In this document: positions 48,650-56,302 of the stretch, piece by piece | How the letters are laid out: every line of letters begins with the position of its first letter | Numbering within the stretch: position 1 is the stretch's first letter | DNA from: Arabidopsis thaliana | Lineage: Eukaryota; Streptophyta; Magnoliopsida; Brassicales; Brassicaceae | Assembly (NCBI RefSeq): GCF_000001735.4 | Contig: NC_003074.8 | Span: 17,119,261 to 17,183,260, forward strand | Length of the DNA stretch: 64,000 nucleotides | Reading direction: 5' to 3' | Notes under the pieces: model-generated | Databases searched by the model: none | What the model saw: the letters and a program-made list of their open reading frames with translations, nothing else | Told to the model about the DNA's origin: nothing | Translations under genes and position numbers: made by a program

Positions 48650-51600
48650 GAAACTCACACGACGTTGTGATTTATTTACTTTGTGGTGTGTGTTTTTTTC
48701 CTGCTCGTTTGTTATGTTGTATTTGAGGTTGTTGCGTTTGAGTGTATTTTGAAAGTAGTATGTATTAGGAGTTTATTTGTTTACCTGACCTTTCATTTTC
48801 TCATTGGCAGATAAATCTCTTCTTGAAGTTATGTTTCTCTGCATAAAAAACCCTCTTTCTTGAAAGCAAAACAATGCTGTTAGCAGTAAACTATATATAA
48901 GCAGAGTAATCAGGACCCTAATTGTCTAACTGAACACATGGAACAATAGATAAAACTAGAAAAAATTATGTGAAGAAAGAAACTTACGACGAATTCAGAA
49001 TTCTCCAGAGTCTACTCTAATGCGAGATTGATTGTTGGCTCGCATTTTTTCCTTTTAGTCCTGCCATGACCAGGATAATGCAGTATTATGAACCAACAAC
49101 TGCAGAATAATGCCAAGTGTTGTAAGAGATTAAATTACCTTAAAAGGAAGTGCCGAGGGAATATCAAGTGGTCGTCTCGTGTCCAAAAAGCTTCTCTAAC
49201 AGCTAACATCTTATCTCTAAAATCTTTAGTATTTTACCTTAAAAAATAAAGATCAAATAAGTTCAAATATTTCCCAAACGTTATATAAAAATCAGTGCAT
49301 AGGTTGTTTACTCGGTTTTCATCCAAACGGAGAGATTCATAAACACCACAAACGTTCTGCATCAAGAAACAAACTCATGTCATTTCTTTGATGGTAATAC
49401 ACTAGTACTGGAGAAAATAAGATGTCACGAGAATTATGTAACAAAGTACCACACAATAAATTATACATATTATAGATTGTGAGTAATACCAGTAAACATC
49501 TAACAGAGAACAAGAGAGTATAATCACCTGACCCTTCATTTTTCGAGGCAACTGAATTGCTTCATTGAATCTAGATTTTTCAGCTTAAGAATCCTATATC
49601 GTTTGACCAAATACAGAATCATATATCGTGATCTAACTCATTATGTTACCAGTAAACTATGAGTAAAGACAAAAGACCAAGGTACTTACTGGAAATCTTA
49701 CTTAACCAGTTAACCGGATCCAAGCCTATATGCTTGTCCAAAGCTGAAAACCAAAAAAATTGTTTATCTTCATAGTAATATTGAAAAGGTTTACGAAGTA
49801 TGATGGAAACTAGTTATTATTGTGTTAATTTCTCCTTTGCGAAGTATGAATTTATAAGCATTTTGTGTAAAGCAAAAGTAAGGTTCTCGTTTCTTTTCTT
49901 GGATTTTGAATCATCACCGAATTTCCATTCACATGAACAGAACGTAAAATTTGACAAATCAAAACATATCTACATTGATTACCTGTTTGTTTTTGTATGC
50001 AAAGCACAGTTTTCCCTCGTAGGCGCTTGAATTCCTCTTTCAAAATAACATAAAAGTTTACGAACTTGTTAAACAACATACTGAACGTCAATATGACTAA
50101 CAATAGTTGTAAGATACTAAAATGGAAAGACAAGGAGACTTCACAAGATATTGACTTGGCAACATAATGGCATTGTTCTTGCCAATAAAGAAAGATTGAA
50201 TTTTTTTTTTCCTGTGTCTAGTATTGTGTTGAATTTTATTATTGTGTTATGTTGTGTTGTGTTCGAGGGTGCTTTGAGTTTATCTGCGTGACGTGTTTTT
50301 TTTTGCATCGTGTTTCAGTTTCACGTGTTTATGTTTGAATTTTGTTGTCTTTCGGTGTGTTTTGAGTTTAGGTGATTGCATGTATATGTATTCGTAAAGT
50401 TGTGTGTTTCTAGATAGTTTGAGGAACCAAAACAAGCCAAGCCACCAAGGCTCATCAAATGCAAATAACATGTAGGGAAGAATACATGAGAATTGAGTAT
50501 ATACACATGAGAATAGAGGAAACTTTACTTTACCTGACCTCTCATATGCTCTTGCTGCAAAATCGTCTCTCATTTGCTCTTGGCAAGGACCTTTGTTCTT
50601 TACAGAATAAGGATCCACTCTCTAGAATTCAAAGCATTTTGTTAGCAAACATTATGTGCAGAGCAAAGCAGGATCCTAACACAACATACAAACAATATAT
50701 AAAAACTACAAAATCAATGCAAAGAAAATATATGGTAAGAATCTTACAGAGGCTGACTGGTTTTCATCTCTTGTTCTTTAAATCTTCACGGAACATGCTG
50801 TATAACGAAAAACCCGAATAGAAAACATAACCCTTCAAGTTAGAAAATATCAAGAGAATGTCAACTGTTGTAAGAGGTGATGAAAAAATTTAATCACCTT
50901 AGCACTGAAGAATATATTTGTTGTCTCATATGCACGAGACTTTCCAAGAAGAAGAATCTGATCCCTGATTTCGTTAGTATTGTACCATGGAAATCAAGAT
51001 CTAGTAGAGAAATGTGATATGCCTTATTAGTTCTTGCAAGTTAAAAACCATTCAAACACGTCATACATTTCCAAACAACATTGTATCAGTGTGTGTAATT
51101 TATATACCTGGCCCTTCTTCTTTCGAGGAGACTGGATGGCTTTCTTAAAGTTGGTTCTTTTCCGCTTAAGAATCGTCTATCTTTGTACAAAACCATTATG
51201 TTAGCAGTCTATACACAAGACCATAATTTGTTTACAAAAACTCTAAAAAGGGATGAAGATAGTTTATCTACCTGATCCTTCGTTTTTACGAGGCAATTGA
51301 ATCACTTTCCTAAGTTTAGCTATTTTCATCTTAAGAGTTCTCCATCTTGATACAAAACCATTCTAATAGCAGTTACTAAGCATATAAGACTATAAATAAA
51401 CCACATAAATAATGCTAATTAAGAAACTTATTGGAATTTATTGAGTTGGATCCAAGCTGGGATTCGACTGCTTTGCTCTTGTTGTTTCTGTTAATCTTGA
51501 CAAGGAAACAATGTCCACAAAACATGTTTATTACGTATGATAAATATTCTTTGTGAAATAAGTATTAATAAGAAAATTTGTATGAAGAAACTTCACCTTG

Positions 51601-54600: not shown

Positions 54601-56302
54601 TTGGAAATCGAGATCTATATGATATGTTTTTTTAGTTGATATCACTTAAACACGTTAGAAATTAGTAGAAAACATTGTATCAAAGTGTGTTTATCTACCT
54701 GACCCTTCTTTTTACGGAGAGATTGAATAGCTTTCTTAAATTTGGTTCTTTTCCACTTAAGAATCGCCTATCCTGGTACAGAACCATTATGTTAGCAGTA
54801 TACACAAGACCATTAGAAAACTACAAAAACTCTGAAAAGAGATGAAGGTAGTTTATCTACCTGATATTTCCTTTCTCCGAGGCAACTGAAGTACTTTCCT
54901 AAGTTTAGTTATATTCAGCTTAAGGGTCGTCCATCTTGATACAAAATCATTCTAATAGCAGTAACTATATACATAAGACTGTAAAATTAAATCACAAAAT
55001 AATGCTAATTAAGAAACTTACAAATTCTGATCCAAGCCTGATTCGACTTCTTTGCTCCTGTTGTTTCTGTTAATCTTGACAAAGGAAACAATGTCCACAA
55101 CTCAAATATTGAACATGCTTATTAAGTTTGAATAAAACAAGTTTTTACGAGTGCATTTGTCCTTTGTGAAGTATGTATTGAGTAGAAATAGATAAACTTC
55201 ACCTTATAACTCTAGCTTTTATCTTGCATTTTGAATCATCACCGAGCTTCCCTGATATGTCTGAGTCATGGAAAGTAACATAACTAATATCAAAATAAAT
55301 TTCGTATGCAGGACACCGCTTCTGCTTGTAGTGGGCCTAGTGTCTTTGATGAGTTTTTCTTTTGGAATAGCATCAAAGTAAGAATTGCTAACAAAATATA
55401 CTAAGCGTCAATTGACTTAGCAACTGAATCTCAAAGTTCACCTGAAATTGACTTAGCAACAGAAAATGATTAATAGTCGTAAGATACCAAGAAAGGAAAG
55501 AAAATAAGAAGAGATACTTCACATGAATTTGACTTAGCAACAAAATCTCAAAGTTCTTAGTTACCAACTGAGAAAAAAAGATGTTAATCGTGAAGTTATT
55601 GTTTTTTTCTTTTGGTGTCTAGTTTTTTGTTGTGCTATATTTAATTTCTAGTGTTATGTTGTGTTTGAGTGTGTTTAGAGTTTTGTTGCGTGTAATGTGA
55701 ATTGTTTTTGTGTTGCATTTGAGTTTTGTTTGTGTTATGTTTGACTTTTGTTGTCTTTGGGTGTGCTCTGAGTTTGAGTGCATTGTGTTTGTTGTGTTTG
55801 TTATGTCTGTGAACGTGTGTGTTTCTAGATAGTGTGAGTAACCCTAACAAGTCAAGACATAATAGATGAACTTATGCATGACACAATAGACATGAAATTA
55901 GAGGGAGAGATATCTGACCTCTCATATGATTTTGGCTACAAAATCACCTTCGAAATTTTTGTTCTCTGGACCTCAAAGATATCTACATGAAGAAGGAGAC
56001 ACAACCCCTCATTTCCTTTTGCTTACTGAGCCAAAAACTTCTCTTGAAATACTGCACCTGAAAGTACAACAGTAAATGAAACTACCCAAATAAATGCCAG
56101 GCCTTATAGAGCCAAAATCTAACTGCTTACTAATATAACTATCAAAGATAGAAAAACAATCTCACTCATGAGAACACATTAAGATAATAGAAAGAGACTC
56201 CAATACATCATCTAGGCAACAAATTATACTTTAAAACAGTGTTTCAAAACTTACATTAATGTTCCCATCTCCAAATTGAGATATGAATTGCCACTTGATA
56301 GC
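48650..56302. repeat. Tandem array of about 1.65-2.1 kb units
   Basis: Landmarks recur in fixed order. The block TGTCTAGTTTTGTGTTGTG lies at about 50214, 51905, 53945 and 55616, with a worn relative near 48690. The SDFGS block lies near 50746, 52394, 54470 and 56110. The block TTTCTGTTAATCTTGACAA lies near 51485, 53455 and 55065. Unit lengths from the SDFGS block are about 1648, 2076 and 1640 bp. The long unit keeps a segment (including the AIKWQF block) absent from its neighbours. Copies differ by many substitutions and indels, so the amplification is old. Confidence 0.8.

Follow-up and report, generated by a model that had tools for sequence, protein, structure and literature searches.

AT3G46614 is an annotated gene of Arabidopsis thaliana located on the minus strand of a 64,000-nucleotide (nt) stretch of chromosome 3, which was analyzed as a whole (hereafter, the window, whose numbering is used throughout). 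Our results suggest that it is a noncoding RNA (ncRNA) gene made of a putative unique leader and a decayed tandem array of exon sets, yielding a circular RNA (circRNA) that spans one unit, a reading to which we assign a probability of roughly 0.6. The existence of the array is confirmed. Self-comparison revealed four diverged tandem units and a remnant on the minus strand between 48680 and 56420, with shifts of 1636, 2062, and 1650 bases between neighboring units and identities of 60-79%. The five top-scoring repeat pairs of the window all belong to this array, and the repetition of the units is far beyond chance. A more sensitive self-comparison returned the direct repeats 54566-52869 versus 52504-50890 (1786 columns, 71%, E=0), 56420-54592 versus 52761-50978 (68%), 56144-54592 versus 54508-52956 (68%), and 52497-51238 versus 50847-49494 (61%), while each of the regions in the first three pairs matches parts of 51239-49485 at 60-62%. 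These full-length matches, at shifts of 1636-2062 bases on the minus strand, bear out the tandem array of diverged units proposed in a first-pass annotation drawn up from the letters of the DNA, whose limits of 48650-56302 are corrected here to about 56420-48680. The remnant (48897-48680) retains one E/F-like exon and part of an AC-rich block. At E<=1e-5, the array had no match in the rest of the window and no inverted repeats within itself.

The relationships among the repeats also suggest an order of events. The E and F exons are copies of each other, 168-171 bases apart, with 72% identity in unit 3 and 68% in units 1 and 2. Since these exons are mutually homologous within a unit, the exon was probably duplicated first inside a unit and the whole unit later; unit 4 is the most diverged. 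On assumed substitution rates, units 1-3 would be 9-23 million years apart, an age at which A. lyrata would be expected to carry the array as well. The first-pass suggestion of a gene growing by exon-set duplication is supported as history (first the E/F exon, then the units), with no sign of present growth, the units being only 60-79% identical.

The locus was identified through a microRNA. The position published for miR5651, chr3(+) 17178489-17178509, between AT3G46616 and AT3G46620 (PMC3906980), corresponds to a single, exact match in the window at 59229-59249, so that the chromosome position equals the window position plus 17119260. With this offset, circRNA 3:17169794-17170903, reported from AT3G46614 (Philips et al. 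2020, PMC7511659), falls at 50534-51643. On the minus strand, an AG immediately precedes 51643 in unit 3 and a GT immediately follows 50534 in unit 4. Because both ends lie on splice sites at once, the offset is right to the base, and the array locus is AT3G46614. CircRNA callers may impose GT/AG, so the junction match is a test of the mapping and not of the biology. The span begins at exon C in unit 3 and closes with exon B in unit 4, making up one round of the exon set, and we infer that the internal content of the circle in our exon model is C3-E3-F3-G3-B4. The open block at 50534-50617, singled out in the first-pass annotation, forms the terminal portion of this circle's donor exon.

According to the passages found of the same article, the circRNA was called from RNA-seq with agreement of two callers required, the gene is described as "(encodes ncRNA)," and its circRNA is one of six whose level is 1.5-fold or more that of the linear form in one or more organ or seedling samples (PMC7511659). 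A spliced product of the region has thus been reported, and a single minus-strand transcription unit, as first proposed, is consistent with one annotated gene and its circRNA. The proposal of a repetitive ncRNA is likewise supported by that description and by reading frames no longer than those of shuffled exons (see below).

Exons were placed by hand from the alignment of units 1-4 and from columns of AG/GT. The resulting model has 30 exons, comprising the leader (306 nt) and 29 others of 15-110 nt, and its exon edges rest on two reported sites, the published back-splice junction sites at 51644/51643 and 50534/50533, plus consensus. Many block edges carry AG/GT in several units, in line with the splice-bounded blocks described at first; the series is nevertheless not identical in every unit. 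Exon A is missing from units 2 and 4, unit 3 has lost the acceptor as well as the donor of exon D, C0 of unit 1 is without a usable donor, and unit 4 has a single E/F-type exon and is the only unit in which block H was placed. Two differences concern the circle: the exon C acceptor reads AAG in units 1-3 and AAT in unit 4, and where unit 4 has the donor CAG/GTAAAG, units 1-3 have AG/ATATC. The single leader of the first-pass annotation corresponds to a putative exon at about 57160-56855, outside the interval given there; its sequence is unique within the window, with a telo-box (TAGGGTTT) at 57079, and no open reading frame (ORF) runs through it, its start and use being provisional. The coordinates of all these features are collected below.

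Features of the AT3G46614 locus in window coordinates, with exon assignments according to our model (a slash marks an exon-intron boundary).
Feature	Position	Strand	Basis
Entire tandem array (units 1-4 and the remnant), part of AT3G46614	48680..56420	-	Self-comparison; name via PMC7511659 coordinates
Unit 1 (A B C0 C D E F G)	54600..56420	-	Unit alignment
Unit 2 (B C0 C D E F G)	52951..54600	-	Unit alignment
Unit 3 (A B C E F G; D sites lost)	50891..52780	-	Unit alignment, AG/GT columns
Unit 4 (B C0 D, one E/F-type exon, H, G; C acceptor lost)	49100..50890	-	Unit alignment
Unit 5 remnant: E/F-like exon 48858-48785 plus AC-rich stub	48680..48900	-	Self-comparison
Putative leader exon, donor AAG/GTACGA at 56855/56854	56855..57160	-	Putative 5' end
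Exon A1 (AIKWQFISQFGDGNIN), 48 nt	56255..56302	-	Unit alignment, exon model
Exon A3, 47 nt by AG site; peptide AIKWQFISQFGDGDID reads from 52626	52579..52625	-	Exon model
CircRNA span; modeled content C3-E3-F3-G3-B4, 385 nt	50534..51643	-	Published coordinates; own exon model for the content
Exon C3, 5' exon of the circRNA, back-splice acceptor GTGAAG/	51597..51643	-	AG/GT columns
Exon E3, 74 nt	51272..51345	-	AG/GT columns, exon model
Exon F3, source of TILKRKRTNFKKAIQSPRKK, homologous to E	51108..51180	-	Self-comparison, exon model
Exon G3	50898..51000	-	Exon model
Exon B4, back-splice donor CAG/GTAAAG, holds the open block of the first-pass annotation	50534..50621	-	AG/GT columns
AC-rich block, unit 1	55541..55880	-	Composition scan
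AC-rich block, unit 2	53861..54180	-	Composition scan
AC-rich block, unit 3, upstream of circle	51841..52160	-	Composition scan
AC-rich block, unit 4, downstream of circle	50151..50440	-	Composition scan

Coding capacity was assessed on the modeled transcript. The longest ATG-initiated ORF in the complete splice model has 49 codons; the best ORF obtained by skipping exons has 153 codons, compared with 221.6 +/- 48.6 in 200 shuffles, 92% of which reach 153; and the longest open frame of the modeled circle runs to 81 codons, a length that 12% of 1000 shuffles attain. As these ORFs are no longer than those in shuffled exons, there is no sign of present coding capacity, and the transcript looks noncoding at present. 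Furthermore, ten exon peptides, and then the joined exon peptides, gave no match in Pfam and nothing credible in the PDB. The first-pass statement that no described family has these peptides is therefore upheld for the peptides and not for the locus, which is annotated and has a published circRNA. Three PDB hits to RecA (E down to 1.4e-11) were rejected, none of the stretches passing alone and the RecA chains being very long, and DUF1104 (E=0.1), a KIN17 zinc finger (E=0.2), and importin alpha (E=0.57) were too weak for use. An exact 29-mer common to A1 and A3 had no match in prokaryote contigs or in viral contigs, and a 2.2-kb query had none in plasmids, results with little bearing on plants.

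Traces of a coding past were sought in the frames of the open peptides. As first described, the block at 50534-50617 is open, and its unit-1 counterpart near 55915 carries stops in the ...RS frame, as the unit-2 counterpart also does; the unit-3 block near 52193, likewise described as stopped, is open in that frame (ORF 52287-51943, 114 amino acids). Changes among copies in the open-peptide frames number 24, 15, and 34 at codon positions 1, 2, and 3 (p=0.024), and nonsynonymous distance (dN) is below synonymous distance (dS) in 14 of 14 pairs. In addition, when four sets of units were scanned in windows, the best sense windows lay on exons E or F in all four. That the exon set was once protein-coding and has since decayed is a tentative conclusion, held at somewhat under even odds.

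The gene has a putative leader followed by four-and-a-bit copies of the series B-C-D-E-F-G (sometimes with A, C0, or H), with one CA-rich intronic block each. Its best-attested product is the circle, in which the unit-4 donor of exon B is joined back onto the unit-3 acceptor of exon C. In the mechanism that we envisage, tandem duplication would have supplied equivalent donors and acceptors, and the back-splice would release one exon set. Unit 4, with a strong donor and without a C acceptor of its own, may use the homologous acceptor one unit upstream; this is the cause of circularization that we infer. The CA-rich blocks and short complementarity around the circle possibly assist, and an RNA-binding protein bridging the direct CA-rich blocks is our guess.

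Several features are relevant to these steps. One CA-rich block of about 240-340 nt occurs per unit, and a scan for A+C of at least 0.72 over 200 nt found four stretches on the minus strand of the window, all of them the CA-rich blocks of the units, and none in the opposite sense. Two of these blocks bracket the circle in direct orientation. The corrected distance to unit 4 is 0.38-0.39 for the CA-rich blocks, 0.59-0.73 for introns, and 0.70-0.77 for exons. According to an approximate splice-site scoring matrix, the donor of the circle narrowly ranks first among nine named donors (4.8, with E3 and F3 at 4.7) and the unit-3 C acceptor scores 2.2; of the 19 donors in units 1-3 with scores above 2.5, 15 recur in both other units. 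The flanks of the circle form a predicted duplex of -93.9 kcal/mol, as low as which only 2% of 100 shuffles come; with shorter flanks of 300 nt, the z value of -2.6 is the most extreme of eight pairs, the other seven ranging from -1.5 to +1.8. This pairing is a weak hint. The longest perfect complement between the flanks is 10 nt, and the flanking introns hold no long inverted repeats (E<=1e-5). A wider proposition, that a tandem exon-set long noncoding RNA (lncRNA) would be a natural circle-maker through acceptor loss in its terminal unit, with CA-rich direct repeats bridged by protein and with block composition, not exon sequence, under selection, seems to us rather unlikely.

It is important to consider a set of observations that weigh against the reading of AT3G46614 as a decayed exon-set gene with a unit-spanning circle. 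Exon identity among units 1-3 (0.76/0.81/0.78) hardly differs from intron identity (0.74/0.77/0.78), and the composition-corrected exon and intron distances overlap. Exon divergence being like intron divergence, no selection on exon sequence is seen since units 1-3 arose. Ranked on the same approximate matrix, the highest-scoring fifth of splice sites gave no sign of greater conservation in any of six tests. The intron and exon distances to unit 4 are inflated wherever the true counterpart is absent (one E/F-type exon for two); the size of the apparent conservation of the CA-rich blocks relative to unit 4 is uncertain, and among units 1-3 these blocks are not clearly slower-evolving. Strong acceptors also persist downstream in unit 4 (D4 4.8 and H4 5.3 on the same matrix), so the loss of the C acceptor alone does not force back-splicing. 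The circRNA is absent from the 10 circRNAs examined by reverse transcription-PCR (RT-PCR; Figure 1) and the 8 examined by droplet digital PCR (ddPCR) in the passages found of PMC7511659, a comparison that leaves aside a second RT-PCR set, of 7 circRNAs and one from the chloroplast (8 in all). The codon evidence is subject to similar reservations. The frames in which it was gathered were picked because they are open, which weakens the test for a coding relic, and the best sense window lies in the TILK frame in only two of the four unit sets, the other two having it in another frame that reaches into the intron before F. Antisense exceeds sense in two of the four sets (z=3.23 versus 2.90 for units 1-2 and 2.86 versus 2.65 for units 1 and 3) and is slightly below it in the remaining two.

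The alternatives bear on different parts of this reading. The circle itself could be an artefact if the sequenced plants carried an extra downstream unit, or if trans-splicing occurred, since forward splicing from B to C would then mimic a back-splice. Direct tandem units with equivalent exons are a setting that would permit such mimicry, and the circRNA is missing from the RT-PCR and ddPCR lists just mentioned. However, with 20-40% divergence between units, each read should map to a single place, the call required two callers to agree in the passages found of PMC7511659, and the acceptor is unit 3's own, so that a nearly identical extra unit would be required. We consider this explanation unlikely. 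The idea that the region is satellite or transposon-derived DNA and hosts no gene of its own appears slightly poorer: the region is tandem, repetitive, and AT-rich, and the F-box gene fragments flanking it hint at rearrangement in the neighborhood, yet the array has neither a match elsewhere in the window nor an internal inverted repeat (E<=1e-5), its exon and intron blocks are ordered and have a reported spliced product, and the low identity between units speaks against a homogenized satellite, whose near-identical monomers were not found (60-79% identity).

It is improbable that AT3G46614 is a protein-coding gene still in use, in which alternative splicing picks the open exons to give a small basic protein. 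Exons B3, B4, E3, F3, and G3 have open frames, another frame stays open through B4-C0-D of unit 4, and all 14 pairs have a dN lower than dS; against this, the longest ORF of the full model has only 49 codons, the ORFs of 153 (exon-skipping) and 81 codons (circle) are within the range of shuffles, exon E is 71-74 nt long, so that E spliced to F at these sites cannot have both exons in the TILK frame, and E2, D1, and E4 contain out-of-frame indels. The lack of a Pfam match and of a credible PDB match, together with the naming of the gene as an ncRNA in PMC7511659, points the same way. Finally, noncoding hosts with many introns and decayed exons exist, and the exons here show no extra conservation, but an intronic small RNA or small nucleolar RNA as the product is very improbable, given that nothing in the array matches an Rfam family at gathering score, a single hit (E=0.46) falling below the threshold, and that no 200-nt fold stands out (lowest -52 kcal/mol sense and -53 antisense).

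Considered as an ncRNA gene with a decayed exon-set array, AT3G46614 can be compared with other systems. The circRNA described previously is from the same locus, and its coordinates agree to the base at both ends; the passages found of that article mention neither a tandem exon-set array nor a one-unit circle nor a lost unit-4 acceptor (PMC7511659). AT1G33615 is the other annotated gene there with a circRNA above its linear RNA, and its circle has a span of similar size (1257 versus 1110 bases). With animal exonic circRNAs, as presented in the passages at hand of PMC7248317, the common feature is a canonical GT/AG back-splice around several exons, whereas those circRNAs have inverted intronic repeats and the AT3G46614 flanks have direct CA-rich repeats and no long inverted ones. 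In plants, comparatively few circRNAs have reverse-complementary flanks, and how circRNAs form there despite few inverted intronic repeats is presented as an open question in the same passages (PMC7248317).

A spliced noncoding transcript and faint codon traces are shared, in turn, with the general concept of lncRNAs derived from decayed protein-coding genes. The duplicated units serve as natural controls, as they provide nearly equivalent sets of donors and acceptors within a single transcript, and circularization is reported for one pair among them. If the lost-acceptor account is true, it offers a rule testable by editing a single splice site; if it is false, the locus is still a clear case of a decayed exon array persisting as a noncoding transcript. 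In the passages found of the remaining literature, AT3G46614 is named only as a mapping boundary (PMC11182498), its neighbor AT3G46616 appears in two further papers, and the text of PMC5623955 contains no AT3G466 name. Thus, the locus and its circRNA were already known, and the array anatomy is apparently undescribed in the passages found, which contain no account of the tandem exon-set array, the unit-length circle, or the lost unit-4 acceptor.

The array is flanked by F-box gene fragments at 48024-47866 (minus) and 57362-57601 (plus), which point away from it. The left one is an F-box start (Pfam F-box, E=2.2e-6) and the right one is F-box-associated (FBA_1, E=2.5e-5), while the ORF adjoining the right piece (57605-57991) has no family match. 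An inversion carrying the array could have split a single gene into these two fragments. The ath-miR5651 sequence (59229-59249) lies within an inverted repeat at 59222-59313. Proteins encoded nearby include an NB-ARC protein, a pentatricopeptide repeat (PPR) protein, a DVL peptide, and a RING/DUF1117 protein, a combination that we take to be the stretch of A. thaliana chromosome 3 around RPP13 and AT3G46620. Elsewhere in the window, an inverted pair of about 400 bases (23482-23880 and 38107-37736, 77% identical) perhaps represents old transposon copies, and 43458-43781 is a 324-base near-palindrome, 68% identical to its own reverse complement, resembling a miniature inverted-repeat transposable element (MITE). 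An 18-base unit repeated 2.6 times without mismatch (27744-27790) overlaps both an inverted repeat (27632-27765) and the 5' end of the ORF 26537-27751 (minus), presumably a glycosyl hydrolase 17 gene. An 81-base unit occurs twice at 89% identity (14049-14207) just upstream of the NB-ARC ORF 11479-14016 (minus), and a tRNA-Gly (TCC) gene is located at 30492-30563 on the plus strand.

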